From IMG/VR virus record IMGVR_UViG_3300049489_000463, positions 1-21,395 of that record: DNA of 21,395 bases, one strand, 5' to 3'. Positions 1 through 5,910 of this stretch are shown one piece after another; position 1 is the first letter of the stretch; the number at the start of each line of letters is the position of its first letter. This DNA is from a virus. The notes under the pieces are model-generated. The model had not been told where the DNA came from. It was given only the letters and a program-made list of their open reading frames with translations, and made no database searches. The position numbers and the translations under genes are program-made.

Positions 1-60
1 CTTGACTCCACGACCATTGGCCGTTATTCCCAAGGTCCGTTCATTTTAAAAAAGGAGTGA
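1..60 (+). CDS. Possible C-terminal end of an upstream gene (partial)
   Basis: Frame 1 is open from the first base to a TGA at 58-60 and would encode the last 19 residues of a gene that starts outside the window. It ends inside the ribosome-binding site of the RecT-like gene, the tight spacing seen elsewhere here. A second frame is also open from base 2 to a TAA near 47-49, so the choice is uncertain. Nothing about function can be said. Confidence 0.3.
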   Translation, partial: LDSTTIGRYSQGPFILKKE

Positions 61-62
61 CG

Positions 63-635
63 ATGTCCGACCTAGCAACCTACCAACCCATCCTGAGTCT
101 CGCCGAGGTTCTTGAGAAATCGAGCATCCTGCCAACCCATAGCCGAGGAGCGAAATATACAAAGTTTGATATCTTTGTTTTGGCATCCATCGGCCAAAGG
201 CTTGGAATTGACCCTCTAGCGTCCGTTATGGGCATCTACATCGTCGAAGGTAGGCCATATATCGGTTCTCGCCTTGTGCGTGCCCTTATCCTCAAAAACG
301 GCCATAAATTTGAAATCAAGGAATGGACTTCCACGGCCATCAAGGTCACGGCGGCTCGGGCAGGCGGGCCAGACCAGGAATTCGGATATTCCGTCGCCGA
401 AGCCACCCATGCCGGGCTGACCGGAAAGACAAGCTGGAAGCAACATCCGCGCCGGATGCTTCTAGCTGCGGTGACCCGCAATGTTGCAGATGCAATTTTT
501 GCTGATATTTTCCTCGGCATCACGACCGATGACGGTAGCGGGCCTGGATTTGAGGAGGGCGAGCAACAGGCTAGCGCTGCCCCCGCCATCACCCTCGAGA
601 GCCTGAACGAAGGAGCGAGCGATGCTAGTGTATGA
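63..635 (+). CDS. RecT-like single-strand annealing protein
   Basis: Probable RecT-family recombinase, 190 aa, which would anneal complementary single strands during phage recombination or repair. The sequence shows the usual RecT signature: a GIDPLASVMGIYIVEGRPYI stretch at residues 48-67 (family pattern G-x-DP-x(6)-I-x-I-x-G-x-P), then a strand and helix leading to an AGLTGKTSWKQHPRRML segment near 117-133, and a final helix with an acidic tail. It is shorter than the usual 250-320 aa, mostly because the N-terminus is compact. I start it at ATG 63 because AAGGAG at 52-57 lies five bases upstream; the GTG at 57 is inside that site. The stop overlaps the next gene's start region by 14 bp, and that gene is a RecE-like nuclease, the classic partner. 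This supports the call more than similarity alone. Confidence 0.8.
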   Translation: MSDLATYQPILSLAEVLEKSSILPTHSRGAKYTKFDIFVLASIGQRLGIDPLASVMGIYIVEGRPYIGSRLVRALILKNGHKFEIKEWTSTAIKVTAARAGGPDQEFGYSVAEATHAGLTGKTSWKQHPRRMLLAAVTRNVADAIFADIFLGITTDDGSGPGFEEGEQQASAAPAITLESLNEGASDASV

Positions 636-1374
636 CGAACCTATGAGCGATTACCTGTCTTCGGACGCGATTAGCGCGTCATGCCTTAAGACTCTGATAA
701 TGAAATCACCTTATCACTTTCAAAAACGTAAGGACCTTATAAAGGAATCTGATGCCCTAAGTTTTGGCACTTTGTGCCACACCGCCATCCTTGAGGCTGC
801 AAAACTAGCCGAGTACGTCATTGAGCCACCGCTGGACAAGAGGACAAAAGCTTGGAAGGAATGGCTTGCGCAGAATGAAGGCAAACCCTCTATCAGTGAA
901 TCCGACGCCGAGCGCGTGCATCTCATCCGTGAGCGATTGCGGCAGGTCGGAATTCTGCCAATATTTGATCGAGGGCAGTCGGAAGTTTCGGGGTACGCGA
1001 TGACCGAGAACAAGCTTCAAATCCGCGCTAGAGCTGACAAGTGGGATGAGAAGAACAAGATTATCGTGGACCTCAAGACAACGAGAGATCTGCAGTGGTT
1101 TGCAAAAGACATTTTCCGTTATAACTACGATCTCAGCGTGCCTCATTATACGGCTATCTTTGGGGACAACGCAGGCATCCCACCGCGCAATCTCACATAC
1201 CTTTTTGTTGCAGTCGAATCGGTGCCCCCATATGACTGCGGTTGGTATGTGCTTGGGCGCGATTCTTTGGAGAAAGCAACGGCGAGATGGGAAAGTGCTT
1301 TAGTTCAGTGCAGAGAAGTGATGGACAACAACATCACGCAGGGGTTTACGATGCCGACTCCCCAGGAGGTCTAA
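622..1374 (+). CDS. RecE-like / PD-(D/E)XK exonuclease
   Basis: Probable 5'-3' double-strand DNA exonuclease of the RecE/PDDEXK type, 250 aa, which would make the single strands that the RecT-like protein anneals. Visible motifs are an N-terminal S-x(3)-SCLKTLIMKSPYHF segment, LSFGTLCHTAIL with His53, Glu121 in SEVSGYA, Asp139 in IRARAD, and the catalytic IIVDLKTT core with Asp150 and Lys152, followed by a helix with Tyr176 (YDLSVPHYTAIFG). The length equals that of the compact C-terminal nuclease domain of RecE; there is no long N-terminal extension. AGGAG at 611-615 sits six bases before ATG 622, so this start is preferred over the in-frame ATG at 643, although the recognisable domain begins close to the latter. 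The start lies inside the end of the RecT-like gene, which implies translational coupling. Confidence 0.82.
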   Translation: MLVYDEPMSDYLSSDAISASCLKTLIMKSPYHFQKRKDLIKESDALSFGTLCHTAILEAAKLAEYVIEPPLDKRTKAWKEWLAQNEGKPSISESDAERVHLIRERLRQVGILPIFDRGQSEVSGYAMTENKLQIRARADKWDEKNKIIVDLKTTRDLQWFAKDIFRYNYDLSVPHYTAIFGDNAGIPPRNLTYLFVAVESVPPYDCGWYVLGRDSLEKATARWESALVQCREVMDNNITQGFTMPTPQEV

Positions 1375-1376
1375 AA

Positions 1377-1547
1377 GTGAGAACCAAGGACATAAAGCAA
1401 ATCCGGTTATCCTTGGGTTATACACAGGCCAAAATGGCATCGTGCCTGAAGGTCAATACCCGCACGGTGCAACGCTGGGAGTCGGGTGAGCGAAATTGTC
1501 CTGAGTCAATTATCCTCCTGGCGTGGTTTTTAAAGAAAGGACTTTAG
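1377..1547 (+). CDS. Small Cro/XRE-type HTH regulator
   Basis: A 56-residue protein that is essentially one helix-turn-helix domain of the Cro/CI (XRE) type: IRLSLGYTQAKMASCLKVNT is the first half and RTVQRWESGERNCPES carries the recognition helix and the family's W-x-x-G turn. There is no extra dimerisation or cleavage domain, so it is Cro-like rather than CI-like. It starts at GTG 1377, six bases after a perfect AGGAGGT at 1364-1370 that overlaps the end of the exonuclease gene; a longer in-frame start inside that gene is not supported. Probably it represses or tunes promoters of this accessory block. Its target cannot be read directly; the palindrome at 3465-3481 is one candidate. Confidence 0.75.
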   Translation: MRTKDIKQIRLSLGYTQAKMASCLKVNTRTVQRWESGERNCPESIILLAWFLKKGL

Positions 1548-1548
1548 A

Positions 1549-1701
1549 ATGATATGGATTATCGGCTTCGTAGCCTTCGTGGCTCTGATTGTTATTGGCC
1601 TCTGGATAGCCTCCGAGTTTGCCCATGCCAGGGCAGAGACAGCGGCTATGCGGCAGTTCAGGGAAGCGGTGAGATATTTAAAGAAACGCAATAACGGCTA
1701 A
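1549..1701 (+). CDS. Small single-pass membrane protein
   Basis: Short gene of 50 codons. The N-terminal 20 residues are strongly hydrophobic (IIGFVAFVALIVIGLWIA) and predict one membrane helix with a very short N-terminus. The remainder is a basic, Ala/Arg-rich helix ending in KKRNNG, which should lie in the cytoplasm. It begins one base after the stop of the HTH gene, with AAAGG eight bases upstream of the ATG. The last 17 bases of its coding end are duplicated exactly about 0.4 kb downstream (see the direct repeats). I do not recognise a family. The layout (one helix, positive tail) also fits small phage membrane effectors such as exclusion proteins, but nothing specific supports that. Confidence 0.6.
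   Translation: MIWIIGFVAFVALIVIGLWIASEFAHARAETAAMRQFREAVRYLKKRNNG
1684..1700 (+). repeat. 17-bp direct repeat, left copy
   Basis: AAACGCAATAACGGCTA, identical to 2093-2109. It is the end of the membrane-protein gene (encoding KRNNG plus stop). Both copies are read in a frame that gives KRNNG and a stop. Confidence 0.95.
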
Positions 1702-1711
1702 AGGAGATGGT

Positions 1712-1969
1712 ATGAAGAAATTAATTGAAGTTGACAATTCGGGGTTTCAGGCATCCATCGGTGAGGTTATCACACTGTTTTGTTGCCGTTATATTTACAC
1801 CGGCAAGTTAACAGGTGTTAGCGCCACAACCTTAGAGCTGACTGATGCAGCCATCGTTTATGATACCGGCGCTTTTGATAAAAAGGACTGGAGTGATGCG
1901 CAGACGTTGCCGCACGGTATTTGGAATATTGAGAGGACTGCGATTGAGTCCTGGGGTAAACTCAAATGA
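1712..1969 (+). CDS. Conserved-looking small protein, function unknown
   Basis: An 85-aa soluble protein. AAGGAG at 1701-1706, overlapping the previous stop codon, is five bases upstream of the ATG. The middle (ITLFCCRYIYTGKLTGVS, then a run of beta-prone residues to AIVYDTGAF) looks like a small beta-barrel, reminiscent in pattern of Sm-like folds, and the C-terminus (LPHGIWNIERTAIESWG) looks like a strand plus short helix. I believe similar hypothetical proteins occur in phages and bacteria, but I know of no assigned function. It sits alone between two exact 17-bp direct repeats, together with the hexamer array, which raises the possibility that it arrived as a unit. Confidence 0.65.
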   Translation: MKKLIEVDNSGFQASIGEVITLFCCRYIYTGKLTGVSATTLELTDAAIVYDTGAFDKKDWSDAQTLPHGIWNIERTAIESWGKLK

Positions 1970-2088
1970 ATCATAGTCGAGCATTTTGGTCTAGGTTTGG
2001 GTCTGGGTCTTGGTCTGGGTCTGGGTCTAGGTTTGGGTCTAGGTCTTGGTCTTGGTCTTGGTCTGGGTCTGGGTCTGGGTCTGGGTAA
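1966..2088 (+). CDS. Low-complexity Ser/Gly/Trp/Arg peptide ORF across the hexamer array
   Basis: A 40-codon ORF whose ATG overlaps the TGA of the preceding gene (ATGA), with GGGG nine bases upstream. Nearly the whole ORF is the hexamer array read as alternating TCT/TTT and GGG/TGG/AGG codons, giving Ser-Gly, Ser-Trp, Ser-Arg and Phe-Gly dipeptides. The coupled start makes translation possible, but array differences change the amino acid in this frame, so selection on this peptide is not evident. The frame continuous with the upstream gene, just past its stop, reads as (Gly-Leu)16 then GKIKRNNG. I regard this as a possible small gene, not a firm one. Confidence 0.25.
   Translation: MNHSRAFWSRFGSGSWSGSGSRFGSRSWSWSWSGSGSGSG
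1988..2083 (+). repeat. Tandem hexamer array, 16 units of GGTCTN
   Basis: Sixteen uninterrupted 6-bp units. In order the last three bases are CTA, TTG, CTG, CTT, CTG, CTG, CTA, TTG, CTA, CTT, CTT, CTT, CTG, CTG, CTG, CTG. The first three bases are always GGT. Differences occur only at unit positions 4 and 6, and CTA-TTG is repeated, which suggests both single-unit and larger-block duplication. The period is a multiple of three, so gain or loss of units keeps the frame. The array lies between the 85-aa gene and the right direct repeat. Confidence 0.97.
2065..2085 (+). other. Canonical G-quadruplex motif
   Basis: The 3' end of the hexamer array reads (GGGTCT)3 GGG: four runs of three G with three uniform 3-nt loops, the standard intramolecular G-quadruplex pattern, on the + strand. 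Because genes here are read from the same strand, the motif would also be present in the transcript. The function is unknown. Confidence 0.75.
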
Positions 2089-2092
2089 AATA

Positions 2093-2109
2093 AAACGCAA
2101 TAACGGCTA
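2093..2109 (+). repeat. 17-bp direct repeat, right copy
   Basis: Identical to 1684-1700. It immediately follows the hexamer array, and in the Gly-Leu frame it encodes KRNNG and then TAG. Confidence 0.95.
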
Positions 2110-2216
2110 GTTACGTTACCTTTAGTAAATAGTTCTTAAGCTTTTGCGATAGCGTCCGATATGTATCTCATGAGCAAGCAATGCAGCCTGCTCGAAACTC
2201 CTGGAAAGGGGATGAG

Positions 2217-2495
2217 ATGACAAAGTCGCAAAAATTAAAAAACTGGTTAGAACTTTGCAAAACACTGGGAATGCCTTTTGATAACGGCACAGTAATCCGA
2301 GATATTATTTATAAAGCCAGCGATTCTGGACTAGCTTCTTTTGTCGCTTGGCCGCGCCTGAATGGATATTATGTAGAAACCAAAGATACTGCGCTTTGCG
2401 GAACAGGAGCATACTACAAGACGTTGGCAGACTACAGAGCTTGGGAGCGCAAGGCTCTAAAGAATAAATGCAAAATTATTAGGGTGGGTTTTTAA
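2217..2495 (+). CDS. Hypothetical protein
   Basis: A 92-aa protein I do not recognise. It opens with a helical MTKSQKLKNWLELCKTLGMP segment, followed by a mixed region rich in Tyr and Ala (SGLASFVAWPRLNGYYVETK) and a basic helical C-terminus (YRAWERKALKNKCKIIRVGF). No signal peptide or membrane helix is seen. I use ATG 2217, with AAAGGGG at 2205-2211 five bases before it, rather than the in-frame ATG at 2181, which has no ribosome-binding site. It is followed after one base by a small HTH gene, so the two are probably co-transcribed. A role in early phage takeover or regulation is possible from position alone. Confidence 0.6.
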   Translation: MTKSQKLKNWLELCKTLGMPFDNGTVIRDIIYKASDSGLASFVAWPRLNGYYVETKDTALCGTGAYYKTLADYRAWERKALKNKCKIIRVGF

Positions 2496-2496
2496 A

Positions 2497-2688
2497 ATGA
2501 CCCTCCTACAAATCCGCCAAACCCTGCACATGACCCAACTACAGTTTGCCTTTGCCCTCGGCATTCGCCGGGACTCATACGCTAAGTATGAGCGAGGGCA
2601 GCGAGCGCCGCCCAAGTGGCTGATGGAGAGAGCGAGACAGATATTGGCTGATTACGGATTTGAAACAACAAAGGAGAACAGAAAATGA
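2497..2688 (+). CDS. Second small XRE-type HTH regulator
   Basis: A 63-residue one-domain helix-turn-helix protein. LLQIRQTLHMTQLQFAFALG forms helices 1-2, and the following IRRDSYAKYERGQRAPPKWL carries the recognition helix and the typical YERGxRxPP turn of this family. The C-terminal helix (MERARQILADYGFE) finishes the domain. It lacks a partner domain, like the 56-aa HTH at 1377, but the two differ clearly in sequence and are not a recent duplication. The start lies one base after the previous stop and has only a weak GGGTGGG ribosome site, so translation is probably coupled. Its stop overlaps the lipoprotein start (ATGA). Confidence 0.75.
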   Translation: MTLLQIRQTLHMTQLQFAFALGIRRDSYAKYERGQRAPPKWLMERARQILADYGFETTKENRK

Positions 2689-3386
2689 AAGCACTTATCA
2701 CCCTAGCAGCACTAGCAACCTTGACAGCATGCGGCTCAGAGAAGACCGAGACGAAGTTTGAAGCAGCTCCACAGCCTGCACAGCAGCCGCAGCAATGGGG
2801 TTCACTGATGCTAGACAATGCTGCAGCCCTCCCTGCCTGCTCTGCAGAGCGTAAGGGTTGGCTAGCCTATCTAAAGGACCAGGCGGTGTTCCAGGCATGC
2901 GACGGTTCGGCTTGGGCGGCTGTTGATATCAAGGGCAAAGACGGCGCTGCTGGTAAAGACGGGGAAGCGGGCAAAGACGGCAAGGATGGAGTAGCGGGTA
3001 AGGACGGCGTGAACGGAACAAACGGAACTGATAACAGGATTGTCTCAACGGAATACTGCTCAACTATCTTTAATCAGTTTGGCCTAGCGCTTATCCTCAC
3101 CCTGCGGGTAGCGGAGACTGCAGCAGGTGACGTTATTTCTAATTGCTCGGTTATGAGTCCAGACACTTCAGTTTCAAGCACAGAGACCTGGATGGCGGGA
3201 TCAGCTGGCGCATCAAATGCGAGCTGCACAGTGTATGCAGATGTCGACTTTGCTGCAGACTATGGCCGGTTCTCTTTTGACCGAACGGGCTCTATTTATT
3301 CCCCAGCAACAAATGCCGCTGACAATCAAAAGATTGCTAGCCCGTTTACCGAAGACGCTTGCTTTAAGCATGAGGCTGCAGAATGA
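2685..3386 (+). CDS. Phage lipoprotein with collagen-like repeat
   Basis: A 233-aa secreted lipoprotein. The first 16 residues form a short signal peptide with a lipobox (LTAC, Cys16), so after lipidation the protein would be held in a membrane, probably the outer one. A Gln/Pro-rich linker follows, then a segment around residues 40-80 (LPACSAERKGWLAYLKD and an ACDGSAW motif), then 11 Gly-x-y triplets at residues 84-114 dominated by GKD, and a C-terminal domain of about 115 aa with several Cys. The Gly-x-y stretch may form a collagen-type trimer. I recall a similar design in lipoproteins of Bdellovibrio-like bacteria, which hints at the host. A surface role such as blocking superinfection or altering the host envelope is plausible but not proven. 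The start is coupled to the HTH gene (ATGA). Confidence 0.7.
   Translation: MKALITLAALATLTACGSEKTETKFEAAPQPAQQPQQWGSLMLDNAAALPACSAERKGWLAYLKDQAVFQACDGSAWAAVDIKGKDGAAGKDGEAGKDGKDGVAGKDGVNGTNGTDNRIVSTEYCSTIFNQFGLALILTLRVAETAAGDVISNCSVMSPDTSVSSTETWMAGSAGASNASCTVYADVDFAADYGRFSFDRTGSIYSPATNAADNQKIASPFTEDACFKHEAAE
2934..3026 (+). repeat. Collagen-like (Gly-x-y)11 coding repeat
   Basis: Eleven consecutive triplets with Gly at the first position (residues 84-114 of the lipoprotein), mostly GKD, with GAA, GEA, GVA, GVN and GTN variants. Codons vary (GGC, GGT, GGG, GGA), so the amino-acid pattern rather than a raw DNA repeat is being kept. Confidence 0.9.
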
Positions 3387-3457
3387 TCCTCCTCACCCTC
3401 ATCACCATAGTCTCCCTGACTTCCTTTGCTGGCCTCTGCCTGCAATTGACACGCTGA
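3383..3457 (+). CDS. 24-residue hydrophobic peptide
   Basis: A very short ORF coupled to the lipoprotein gene by an ATGA overlap, with GAGG seven bases upstream of its ATG. The product is almost wholly hydrophobic (MILLTLITIVSLTSFAGLCL, then QLTR), enough for a single membrane helix with a basic C-terminal end. There is no proper lipobox at its Cys. It lies directly before the endolysin, and its 3' end contains the -35 box of the endolysin promoter. Candidate lysis accessory or toxin-like membrane peptide, on position and composition only. Confidence 0.4.
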   Translation: MILLTLITIVSLTSFAGLCLQLTR

Positions 3458-3474
3458 GCCCCAAGCCCTAAACT
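3446..3474 (+). promoter_or_regulatory. Strong sigma70-like promoter for endolysin
   Basis: A perfect -35 box TTGACA (3446-3451), a 17-bp spacer and a -10 box TAAACT (3469-3474, four of six matches). The expected start of transcription is 3481-3483, that is, at or next to the endolysin ATG at 3482. Confidence 0.6.
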
Positions 3475-3481
3475 CTAGGGC
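3465..3481 (+). promoter_or_regulatory. Perfect palindrome over the -10 box, possible operator
   Basis: GCCCTA, five-base spacer AACTC, TAGGGC: a perfect 6-bp inverted repeat covering the -10 box and ending one base before the endolysin ATG. The position suits a repressor operator (two small HTH proteins are encoded just upstream). In read-through RNA the same sequence would form a short hairpin next to the start codon. Confidence 0.45.
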
Positions 3482-4666
3482 ATGAAACCAAGCCAACAAT
3501 GCATTGACCTTATCAAGTCTTTTGAAGGACTAAGGCTATTAGCCTATCCCGATCCAGGCTCTATTGATGGCAAGCCCATCACCATAGGTTGGGGCACTAC
3601 TCAGTACCAAAATGCGGGCATAGCGAAATATGGTCGTTCGGCTGTGATGCTTGGAGACACACTGACAGAGCACGACGCAGAGCTAGAGTTGCAGGCAGCC
3701 ATTGCGCGGTTTGCTAAAGTCATCAACGGAGCTACCAACAAGCTTAACCAGCAACAGTTCGACGCTGCTGTTTCGTTTGCGTATAACACTGGCGCTAACA
3801 CTAGGCAGATCACCAGGCTTCAATCCGGCGCTATCCGCGAATTCCGCAAAATGATGCCGCAGTATACCAAAGGCGCAGATGGCAGAGTGCTACCTGGCCT
3901 GGTCAGGCGCAGACAGGCAGAAACAGACCTCTGGGACAGTGGAGCTAATCAGGACAGACCAGGGGCTACCTGGGTCAATCTTGTGCGTCACGGTTCCAAG
4001 GATGCCCCCGAGTACCGCGCCTACATCATGGACGGCGAGGCCTGCCTGGCGGTCAAAAACTGGACTACTCGCGATGAGCTAATGGCTATCCTTAAGCCTC
4101 TGGGTAATCTGAATGTAACTATGGGTGAGTATGGCTGGCATAGGGAGCCGTCTGCTCCGGTCAAGAAAGACAACCCCTTCAAGGTCCCATACTTCTCCCA
4201 GCGTGACTATGGTGGTGCCCAGGCTTGGTCGATTTGTGGGTGCACAAGTGTGGCGATGGTGCTTGCCTATTACGGCATAGGCGCAACTCCTGACACAGTC
4301 TTAAAAGGCTACGGCAAAGCAGCGTGCCAGTCTCCGCCTGGGTGTGAGGCCGTCTTTGAGGCCAACAAGCTTCGGGCTAAGAGCACATACAAAGGCACAT
4401 GGAAGCAGATCAGGGATGAGATAGACCTCGGTAGGCCAGTGGTTATTCATGGCATGATGACAAGCAGCGGCCACATCATGGTCGTGACTGGCTACGATGA
4501 CAAGGGCTATTGGTGCAATGACCCCGCTGGCAAGTGGGAGCAGAAGGTTAACGACTCCTACAGCGACAACCCTAAGAACGGCGCAGGCGTCTACTACCGC
4601 GAAGAGGCTATGTGGCTTGCGTGTGGTAAGGATGGGGATGTGTGGTATTCGACTGCGTTTCGGTAG
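3482..4666 (+). CDS. Two-domain endolysin: GH24 lysozyme plus C39-like peptidase
   Basis: A 394-aa cell-wall lytic enzyme. Residues 1-155 are a phage lysozyme of the T4/P22 type that cuts the glycan chain: SFEGLRLLAYPD with Glu15 and Asp24, then PITIGWGTT with Thr34 as the third active-site residue. Residues about 160-225 are a linker of unclear fold. Residues about 230-394 are a papain-like domain of the C39 type: ICGCTSVAMVLAYYG with Cys252, SGHIMVVTGYDD with His331 and NDPAG with Asp347 match the Cys-His-Asp triad, and Gln247 lies in the right place for the oxyanion hole. It may cut peptide cross-links or another protein. No signal peptide is seen, so export would need a holin. No usable ribosome-binding site precedes the ATG (AGGG is one base away), consistent with a leaderless or near-leaderless message from the promoter at 3446-3474. 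Confidence 0.85.
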   Translation: MKPSQQCIDLIKSFEGLRLLAYPDPGSIDGKPITIGWGTTQYQNAGIAKYGRSAVMLGDTLTEHDAELELQAAIARFAKVINGATNKLNQQQFDAAVSFAYNTGANTRQITRLQSGAIREFRKMMPQYTKGADGRVLPGLVRRRQAETDLWDSGANQDRPGATWVNLVRHGSKDAPEYRAYIMDGEACLAVKNWTTRDELMAILKPLGNLNVTMGEYGWHREPSAPVKKDNPFKVPYFSQRDYGGAQAWSICGCTSVAMVLAYYGIGATPDTVLKGYGKAACQSPPGCEAVFEANKLRAKSTYKGTWKQIRDEIDLGRPVVIHGMMTSSGHIMVVTGYDDKGYWCNDPAGKWEQKVNDSYSDNPKNGAGVYYREEAMWLACGKDGDVWYSTAFR

Positions 4667-4717
4667 CCTGTCAACTTCTAGACTTTGATTTAGCCGTAAG
4701 AATCAGCGACACTCTAA

Positions 4718-4738
4718 GTGCGCTCATTTTGGGCGCAC
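4718..4738 (+). promoter_or_regulatory. Inverted repeat upstream of the membrane/coiled-coil gene
   Basis: GTGCGC, nine-base loop, GCGCAC: a perfect 6-bp stem ending next to the GAGGAG ribosome-binding site of the gene at 4751. No T-run follows, so it is not an obvious terminator. It may be an operator or a 5' RNA hairpin. Confidence 0.4.
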
Positions 4739-4750
4739 GAGGAGACAGCC

Positions 4751-4987
4751 ATGCAGGACACGACAAAAGCGGATATCAGTTGGATATCAGACCTAGTTGT
4801 CAAAGCACTCTGCGGAGCCTGCACTATCCTCTTAGCCATCGCTGTTACTTCTCTGCAGAGTATGAATGATGAGATCAAGTCACTGAGTGCTAACGTCTTT
4901 GAGCTGTCCTCGCAGTCCAAGGTGCTTAACGTTACTATCGCTAACCTCGAGAAGCGTCTCGAGAAGCTTGAGGGACAGAAGCCTTAG
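4751..4987 (+). CDS. Small membrane protein with C-terminal coiled coil, lysis candidate
   Basis: A 78-aa protein with one membrane helix at about residues 16-36 (VVKALCGACTILLAIAVTSL) and a helical C-terminus at about 40-76 with regular Leu/Val spacing (IANLEKRLEKLEGQK), typical of a coiled coil. GAGGAG at 4739-4744 is six bases before ATG 4751, so the upstream GTG at 4718 is rejected. It directly follows the endolysin. One helix plus a coiled coil is the layout of inner-membrane spanins and of some holin-like proteins. No Rz1-type lipoprotein is nested within it, so which role applies is open. It ends tail-to-tail with the methyltransferase gene, overlapping it by four bases. Confidence 0.6.
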   Translation: MQDTTKADISWISDLVVKALCGACTILLAIAVTSLQSMNDEIKSLSANVFELSSQSKVLNVTIANLEKRLEKLEGQKP

Positions 4988-5910
4988 CGCCTGTTCCAGT
5001 ATAGCCGCTCCATCGTCTTGTCGGCTGACTTTGCGCCAGTGGCTGCCATACTAACCCGTTTACCTTTTTCAAATACCAGCTCAAACCTCGGATCGTCACA
5101 GTTGTATTCAGAGAAATAGACAGGAAAGTCTCTTGTTGCAGCCCACTCAAAGAATGCAGTGTGATCAAAATGAACTCCGTACTGCTGTTTTATGTATGAT
5201 TTTGAAGCAATGAAATATGGTATATCGCAATAAACAACCGAGTTCGGTTTAATCTCGACTTGCCTATAGTCTAGGCCAGTCATTGTTAGATTACCCGGCA
5301 ACTGCTTCAACTGCTCCAACCGCTCCAACTGCTGCAACGATCTTTGTCTTTCTAGTTGCGCTTTTTGTGTCTTACTCAAGTACGGCAAAAGGAAGTCTGG
5401 CACATTTTTTTTGTACTCGCCGATATGCCTTCTCGCTATCAAGCGCCTCTCTTTGATGCTCTCGGTGCTCCAAGAGTCACGGGAAAGCACTTGCTTTGCG
5501 AGGTCATCAAACTCGCTGAACACGATAGCTTGATGCAGCGACCGCTTGTAGCCTTCGATATTTTTGCCAAAGAGATAGGTCTTCTGATCATTCCCAAACG
5601 ACCACAGGCACCGCACATAGGCATCGCTATCTTTGCGGGCAAAAAACTCCTGACGCGACACCCATGCCGGCTTAAATACGTTGTAGTTGTATTTGCCTTC
5701 AATGGCGTCGCGAATTAGGACAAGAATATCGCTCTTAATCTCGTTGAAATGAAAGTGCTGATACTTGTGTTTCTGGTGAGTCAGCATGTAGTGCGTGACG
5801 GCAAAGCCACCACCAAACAGATCGTAGAAGTTTTCTGCAGGTGGGAAGTAATCGGCTAGATACTGCACAAAATTAGACTTAGAACCCTGGTAGGGAATCC
5901 CGCATTTCAT
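4984..5910 (-). CDS. Orphan DNA adenine N6-methyltransferase (D12 class), DIPY variant
   Basis: A 308-aa adenine methyltransferase of the Dam/D12 class, transferring methyl from S-adenosylmethionine to adenine N6. IPYQGSKSNF (residues 5-14) is the N-terminal motif, FYDLFGGGFAV (28-38) the AdoMet-binding motif, and VVYCDIPYF (225-233) the catalytic motif. The usual DPPY is DIPY here, a form I have seen in some phage enzymes. Residues 192-204 have Leu at every third position (LQQLERLEQLKQL), encoded by a 9-bp tandem repeat. No restriction enzyme is nearby, so it probably protects phage DNA or changes gene expression. It starts at ATG 5910, with GAGGT about five bases upstream. A promoter is proposed at 5934-5962. 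Confidence 0.85.
   Translation of the reverse strand: MKCGIPYQGSKSNFVQYLADYFPPAENFYDLFGGGFAVTHYMLTHQKHKYQHFHFNEIKSDILVLIRDAIEGKYNYNVFKPAWVSRQEFFARKDSDAYVRCLWSFGNDQKTYLFGKNIEGYKRSLHQAIVFSEFDDLAKQVLSRDSWSTESIKERRLIARRHIGEYKKNVPDFLLPYLSKTQKAQLERQRSLQQLERLEQLKQLPGNLTMTGLDYRQVEIKPNSVVYCDIPYFIASKSYIKQQYGVHFDHTAFFEWAATRDFPVYFSEYNCDDPRFELVFEKGKRVSMAATGAKSADKTMERLYWNRR
5299..5337 (-). repeat. 9-bp tandem repeat inside the methyltransferase
   Basis: About 4.3 imperfect copies of a 9-bp unit (CAACTGCTC-like on the + strand), encoding Leu-x-x four times and then Leu, at residues 192-204 between the helical domain and the catalytic motif. Copy changes would keep the frame. Confidence 0.8.

Follow-up and report, generated by a model that had tools for sequence, protein, structure and literature searches.

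The hexamer array of IMG/VR virus record IMGVR_UViG_3300049489_000463, a virus contig of 21,395 bases that was analysed over its whole length and is called the window here, almost certainly forms the main coding part of a small gene (gene 2), which is paired with the gene directly upstream (gene 1) in a phage module. The best overall explanation of our data, to which we assign a probability of roughly 0.6, is a coding gene pair that combines an Sm-like gene 1 with a gene 2 of the sticker-spacer type. The module has apparently not been described so far, as neither its peptide strings nor DUF6948 appear in any paper of the literature searched, a body of text that covers few of the subscription journals. 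The relevant features of the window are:

1684-1700, plus strand: left 17-bp direct repeat AAACGCAATAACGGCTA, bracketing the two-gene module
1712-1969, plus strand: gene 1, 85 aa, predicted to have an Sm/LSm-like fold (YIYTGKLTGV...AAIVYDTGAF...ESWGKLK)
1966-1969, plus strand: ATGA start/stop overlap, with the start of gene 2 inside the stop (TGA) of gene 1
1966-2088, plus strand: gene 2, a dipeptide-array gene of 40 aa with the leader MNHSRAFW followed by (Ser-[Gly/Arg/Trp])n, based on translation, the related loci and the frame test described below
1988-2083, plus strand: array of sixteen GGTYTN units, codons TCT-NGG for Ser-[Arg/Gly/Trp]
2093-2109, plus strand: right 17-bp direct repeat AAACGCAATAACGGCTA, which brackets the module exactly

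The array and its reading frame

The original prediction, made from the sequence alone, described sixteen tandem GGTCTN units that vary at positions 4 and 6 alone, with blocks of units recurring. This description holds: positions 1988-2083 consist of 14 GGTCTN and two GGTTTG units followed by a partial GGT, variation is confined to the two positions named, with A, G or T but never C at position 6, and the block GGTCTA-GGTTTG is found twice (1988-1999 and 2024-2035). TRF reports a period of 6 with 16.5 copies and a score of 135, the highest of all arrays in the window, and at least three such units in a row did not occur in any of 100 dinucleotide shuffles. The neighbouring stretch is also A/T-richer as claimed (65% A+T in 2084-2165 versus 50% in the window). 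What had been missed is that the array is enclosed in the open reading frame 1966-2088. Among the roles originally proposed, the variable-length peptide is the correct one.

Translation from the ATG at 1966 gives MNHSRAFWSRFGSGSWSGSGSRFGSRSWSWSWSGSGSGSG*, a product that begins with MNHSRAFWSRFGSGSWSG and, like the Ser-X products of this type in general, is cationic and Trp-rich. Judged from the sequence, the ATGA overlap is expected to couple the translation of gene 1 and gene 2. Two other frames were considered and rejected: a large one on the reverse strand (1858-2100, Pro-Arg/Lys) and one that reads Gly-Leu are both lost when the hexamer changes in other phages, and the latter mostly has no start codon. 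A structured RNA was likewise discarded, with no match in Rfam and a folding z-score of only -1.6 (8 of 200 shuffles fold equally well), as were promoters and terminators, which show no excess over shuffles, the sole "terminator" being the array folding on itself.

Pairing with gene 1 and conservation of the dipeptide code

Related loci were collected from among the listed matches of an IMG/VR scan for five GGTYTN units. Phage loci with long mixed arrays usually carry A, G and T without C at the sixth base, and a minority of phages have C in place of A. A basic leader with a start codon precedes the Ser frame of these arrays, and directly upstream most of them encode a small protein of one of two types: the ETGAF type ("YIYTGKL.GVN...IVYETGAF"), to which gene 1 of the window belongs, or the IADTGRF type ("IRTVTM...WIADTGRF...EVEPF"). 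A comparison by hhalign identifies both types as homologs (probability 96.8, E 2.6e-10). Using alignments of the two as queries, we then searched IMG/VR by the gene 1 protein alone, although the queries themselves derived from array-bearing loci, and kept the best 80 of 193 and the best 79 of 255 relatives. These 159 viral loci, the window and two phages with deposited genomes make up a set of 162, which includes some near duplicates that were removed in the frame test.

A Ser-alternating open reading frame directly follows gene 1 in 145 of the 162 loci. Among the remaining 17, seven have kept the leader intact and possess a contracted array (such as MTRGLKQKYRSGS and MNAAVTRAGFDNPRSRSWSY), six have a contig end at most 75 nt away and only four truly go without it. 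Exceptions exist in both directions, as some contigs harbour arrays but no gene 1 in the vicinity, and in a few others gene 1 lacks an array. The start of gene 2 overlaps the stop of gene 1 by four bases, as in the window, in 75 of the 145 loci and by one base in 20. Tandem paralogs with a common leader such as MIKKSIYKRNIW or MITKRTKWRR are frequent. The most extensive sets were seen in L010 and L314 (IMGVR_UViG_3300042987_003260), where about 17 Ser-X array genes in tandem, each with a MITKRTKWRR-like leader, come after a single Sm-like gene; comparable sets are present in L035, L098 and L112, and L437 has one of the Gly type.

The leaders are matched to the gene 1 subfamily. Leaders of the KQK type (MIRGKKQKW, MRGLKQKYR) accompany 45 of 60 ETGAF partners versus 2 of 58 IADTGRF partners, and RxG[FY]-like leaders (MNAAILRTGFD type) accompany 35 of 58 IADTGRF versus 1 of 60 ETGAF partners; MNHSRAFW, the leader of the window, fits poorly to both. 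This pattern suggests docking of the leader on its gene 1 partner, but joint descent of the pair predicts the same.

The hexamer itself differs between phages (GGTCTN, GGTCGN, GGTCAN or GGAGCN), whereas the product is always Ser-[Gly/Arg/Trp], and the array is therefore conserved at the protein level. Among the Ser codons, TCG dominates in 59 loci, TCT in 51, AGC in 21, TCA in 12 and AGT in 2, and in each of these classes Gly, Arg and Trp account for 86-95% of the X residues. Their totals are close to 1:1:1 (G 1101, R 1024, W 944), and Arg makes up one third in place of the half expected from a freely variable base. Mostly a single Arg codon is used per phage (only AGG in 57 loci, only CGG in 44, mixed in 17), and codon choice tracks local GC content, both for Ser (0.386 in TCT loci versus 0.543 in TCG loci, p = 4e-10) and for Arg (AGG versus CGG, p = 3e-6). 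In an agnostic frame test, which located the tract of period 6 and the base that varies in it without translation, this base occupied codon position 1, counted from the overlapping start, in 72 of 79 arrays with a 4-nt overlap (p = 8e-27).

These synonymous hexamer classes are the reason to reject the iteron-like protein-binding array of the original prediction and, more generally, an element acting at the DNA level in replication or recombination with an incidental reading frame. Within one phage the unit is nearly invariant at five of six bases, the wobble positions are homogeneous and the flank is A/T-rich, all of which would suit such an element. However, the hexamers found at the same place in related phages have no DNA site in common and encode the same chain, start codon and frame are fixed, codons follow GC content and leader peptides are conserved, which makes a DNA-level role very unlikely.

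Conservation of the code goes along with a rapid turnover of its units. Comparison of unit numbers among relatives, which had been proposed as a check, revealed that both length and order vary between nearly identical phages: L303 and L304 have flanks of 100% identity and array genes of 55 versus 27 aa, L279 and L282 (98.7%) 53 versus 61 aa, and L329 and L330 (93.7%) 109 versus 83 aa, with individual lengths possibly collapsed in short-read assembly, and the array is reordered between L393 and L405 (96.5%). Other close pairs have identical arrays. As anticipated for a 6-bp unit, the differences are whole hexamers and keep the frame. The X letters show no dependence on their neighbours (mutual information no higher than in shuffles), but blocks of at least six X letters recur about two-fold more often than in shuffles. 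Of the originally suggested recombination hot spot, the local instability is thus borne out, with block duplication above chance, shifts of unit number and order in close relatives and contig breaks within the array.

Besides, there is hardly any variation of the Ser codon or of the third base of X within one phage, the latter being G in 3183 of 3446 cases. This is beyond the demand of plain protein selection and needs rapid unit turnover; the Gly:Arg:Trp balance persists alongside both. Block duplication and fast length change would also be produced by neutral slippage, that is, by a simple repeat that has grown at the end of a gene and is merely tolerated. Selection is nevertheless needed, because one two-residue code is shared by five Ser-codon classes, with a balanced Gly:Arg:Trp ratio, in nearly all carriers of gene 1, and we regard pure neutrality as hardly credible. 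The chance that the array stems from misassembly or contamination is smaller still and practically negligible. Contig ends do cluster in the array, lying within 300 nt of gene 1 on the downstream side in 28 of 159 loci versus 2 of 159 upstream, but the array is internal to contigs from many independent samples and to two deposited complete phage genomes.

Gene 1 and the sister modules with Gly arrays

Gene 1 very probably adopts an Sm-like fold, a small and strongly bent beta barrel, as predicted by structural models of both subfamilies. The AlphaFold model of the window type, built on 63 homologues, reached a pLDDT of 91.6 and that of the IADTGRF type 92.0, and in Foldseek searches against the PDB all top 50 matches of either model were Sm/LSm or Lsm-domain chains with a probability of 1.00. 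The best E values were marginal (1.1e-3 for the window type, 1.5e-3 for IADTGRF), with target-normalised TM scores of up to 0.83. The predicted fold is common to both subfamilies and the Sm/LSm/Hfq superfamily, including archaeal SmAP (1i8f) and spliceosomal Sm proteins, and phage proteins that databases already call Sm-like, such as a Synechococcus phage S-CAM3 protein with an Sm-like domain in BFVD, have the fold in common with the window model as well. At the sequence level, in contrast, searches with gene 1 detected neither a Pfam nor a PHROG family, nor any sequence match in the PDB or homology to Sm profiles. A further difference from the superfamily is that the low-complexity tail is encoded by an overlapping gene of its own. 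The models of gene 1 are monomer predictions.

Canonical Sm motifs are only partly visible, with correspondences judged by eye. In the ETGAF alignment a nearly invariant Asn37 lies in a GVNxT loop, where a Gly-Val-Asn turn may correspond to the Sm1 Asp-x-x-Asn, and the IADTGRF alignment has a nearly invariant Arg93 in VIVGRGxII, whose Arg-Gly may correspond to that of Sm2.

A structure search of BFVD with the window model also returned proteins named DUF6948, next to which Gly-Tyr-rich open reading frames occur. A pattern scan for Gly-[Tyr/Asp] arrays yielded 120 viral stretches, including 75 mixed arrays with enough upstream sequence, and 52 of these 75 come after a DUF6948 (PF22253) protein or related small families. 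Conversely, in scans by protein alone, an overlapping Gly-[Ser/Tyr/Asp/Asn] array gene follows in 66 of 75 DUF6948 loci and in 69 of 75 loci of the "WGTTKGLG" type (sister-module loci L409-L688). Like the window module, these modules consist of a small phage protein, an overlapping dipeptide-array gene and a subtype-specific leader (METxLTLDG with WGTTKGLG), and their contigs break in the Gly arrays too. They differ in that Gly is fixed and Tyr, Asp, Ser or Asn variable, which makes the product acidic and not basic. The plan of a small barrel protein with an overlapping dipeptide array is hence realised in basic and acidic chemistries.

Profile comparison connects IADTGRF with DUF6948 (probability 84, E 7.5e-6) and DUF6948 with WGTTKGLG (97.2, E 4e-11). 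The ETGAF subfamily of the window has no direct profile link to DUF6948 and its protein no PF22253 match above the Pfam cut-off, so that the relation is one of fold and of chained profiles. Through such chained links only, a common ancestry of all these modules appears likely.

The sister modules also bear on the idea that gene 2 encodes a toxin-like or membrane-active Arg/Trp-rich peptide with gene 1 as partner or control. A cationic, Trp-rich product from a small two-gene operon with overlapping frames would fit this idea, but acidic Gly-[Asp/Tyr] arrays occupy the same position in the sister modules, up to about 17 tandem copies exist per phage and, by eye, no signal or transmembrane segment was seen in the leaders. 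We therefore consider a toxin improbable.

Possible mode of action and genomic surroundings

How the pair acts can be proposed only tentatively: an Sm-type nucleic-acid-binding protein may work together with a multivalent sticker-spacer tail. Gene 1 would form an Sm-type oligomer that binds RNA or single-stranded DNA, and the gene 2 leader, matched to its gene 1 subfamily, would dock on this oligomer. The array would serve as the tail, in which Arg and Trp as stickers bind nucleic acid and one another and Ser and Gly act as spacers, and many weak contacts could bring the RNA or DNA of the phage together in a complex or a condensate. As mean composition would be important and exact order would not, fast slippage could be tolerated. 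The wider notion of undescribed ribonucleoprotein-like phage modules, in which an Sm-fold protein and a separately encoded, hypermutable two-residue-code polymer (Ser-[Gly/Arg/Trp] or Gly-[Tyr/Asp/Ser/Asn]), selected for its composition and not its order, organise the RNA or DNA of the phage, perhaps in a condensate, is equally speculative and at present rather doubtful.

If true, bacterial viruses would have in this module a counterpart of those Sm proteins that carry Arg-Gly tails. In eukaryotes, SmB, D1 and D3 carry Arg-Gly tails and SR proteins RS domains; the likeness consists in an Sm fold with Arg-rich dipeptide repeats in the former and in Ser-Arg dipeptides in the latter. Unlike these proteins, the module belongs to phages, its repeat is a separate polypeptide, Trp is as common as Arg and Ser stands at every second residue. 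The module is present in hundreds of environmental phage contigs, with a gene 1 outside the Pfam and PHROGs families and a gene 2 whose repetitiveness lets it be overlooked by gene finders and masked by the low-complexity filter of BLAST. It joins a predicted Sm-type fold in phages with a dipeptide polymer of fixed amino-acid set but freely changing codons and order. This offers a clean test case from nature for protein function that is coded by composition and independent of order, and for genes that persist as unstable tandem repeats, and the unexplained Pfam family DUF6948 gains a partner and a fold hypothesis.

In the window, RecT-like and exonuclease-VIII-like genes precede the module, and HTH and lysis genes follow it. 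Other phages have recombination, replication and methylation genes as neighbours, with RecT, exonuclease, SSB and methyltransferases in the early region, and no constant neighbour-gene partner was found across phages. Bracketing repeats of at least 14 bp, as in the window, occur in 10 of 102 modules, two of them with array units as repeats, versus 0.2% in mismatched pairs. This suggests that the module is gained or lost as a cassette. Longer locus-specific bracketing repeats were seen in L342 (40 bp), L376 (27 bp) and L344 (21 bp).

These surroundings would also fit a function in counter-defence or recognition, with gene 2 as a fast-evolving bait, tag or inhibitor against a host factor and X varying by arms race or self-recognition. 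The early-region neighbours, the hint at cassette movement and an X order and length that differ in near-identical phages with a conserved gene 1 speak for it. However, X is an unordered string of constant mean composition, unlike a precise recognition surface, and a PADLOC search returned no model match to a known anti-phage defence protein, so that we rate this function as unlikely, if less so than a toxin.

Regarding hosts, one ETGAF module lies on a Patescibacteria MAG contig, and this contig, already known, was the only match of the ETGAF profile among 287 Patescibacteria genomes. The IADTGRF profile had no match in 754 genomes (369 + 385) drawn from two proteobacterial classes. A distant blastn search of window positions 1-5000 against phages gave no match, and the terminase of the window has only distant relatives of about 25% identity. 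Pure (GGTCTC)n microsatellites were encountered in many bacteria (L128-L246), with dozens in the Kofleriaceae MAG JAGPCY01 and several in roseobacters. They belong to the same hexamer family as the window array but are mostly of a single unit type and have no partner gene, and were not accepted as relatives.

Further downstream, the window encodes a protein with a lipoprotein-like N-terminus followed by collagen-like GKD repeats (2685-3386; Pfam Collagen below cut-off) and an endolysin that combines a phage lysozyme domain with a C39-like peptidase domain (3482-4666). On the minus strand, opposite to its neighbours, an open reading frame at 4984-5910 resembles a DNA adenine methylase by eye and contains an internal 9-bp coding repeat (LEQLERL-like) at 5299-5338.
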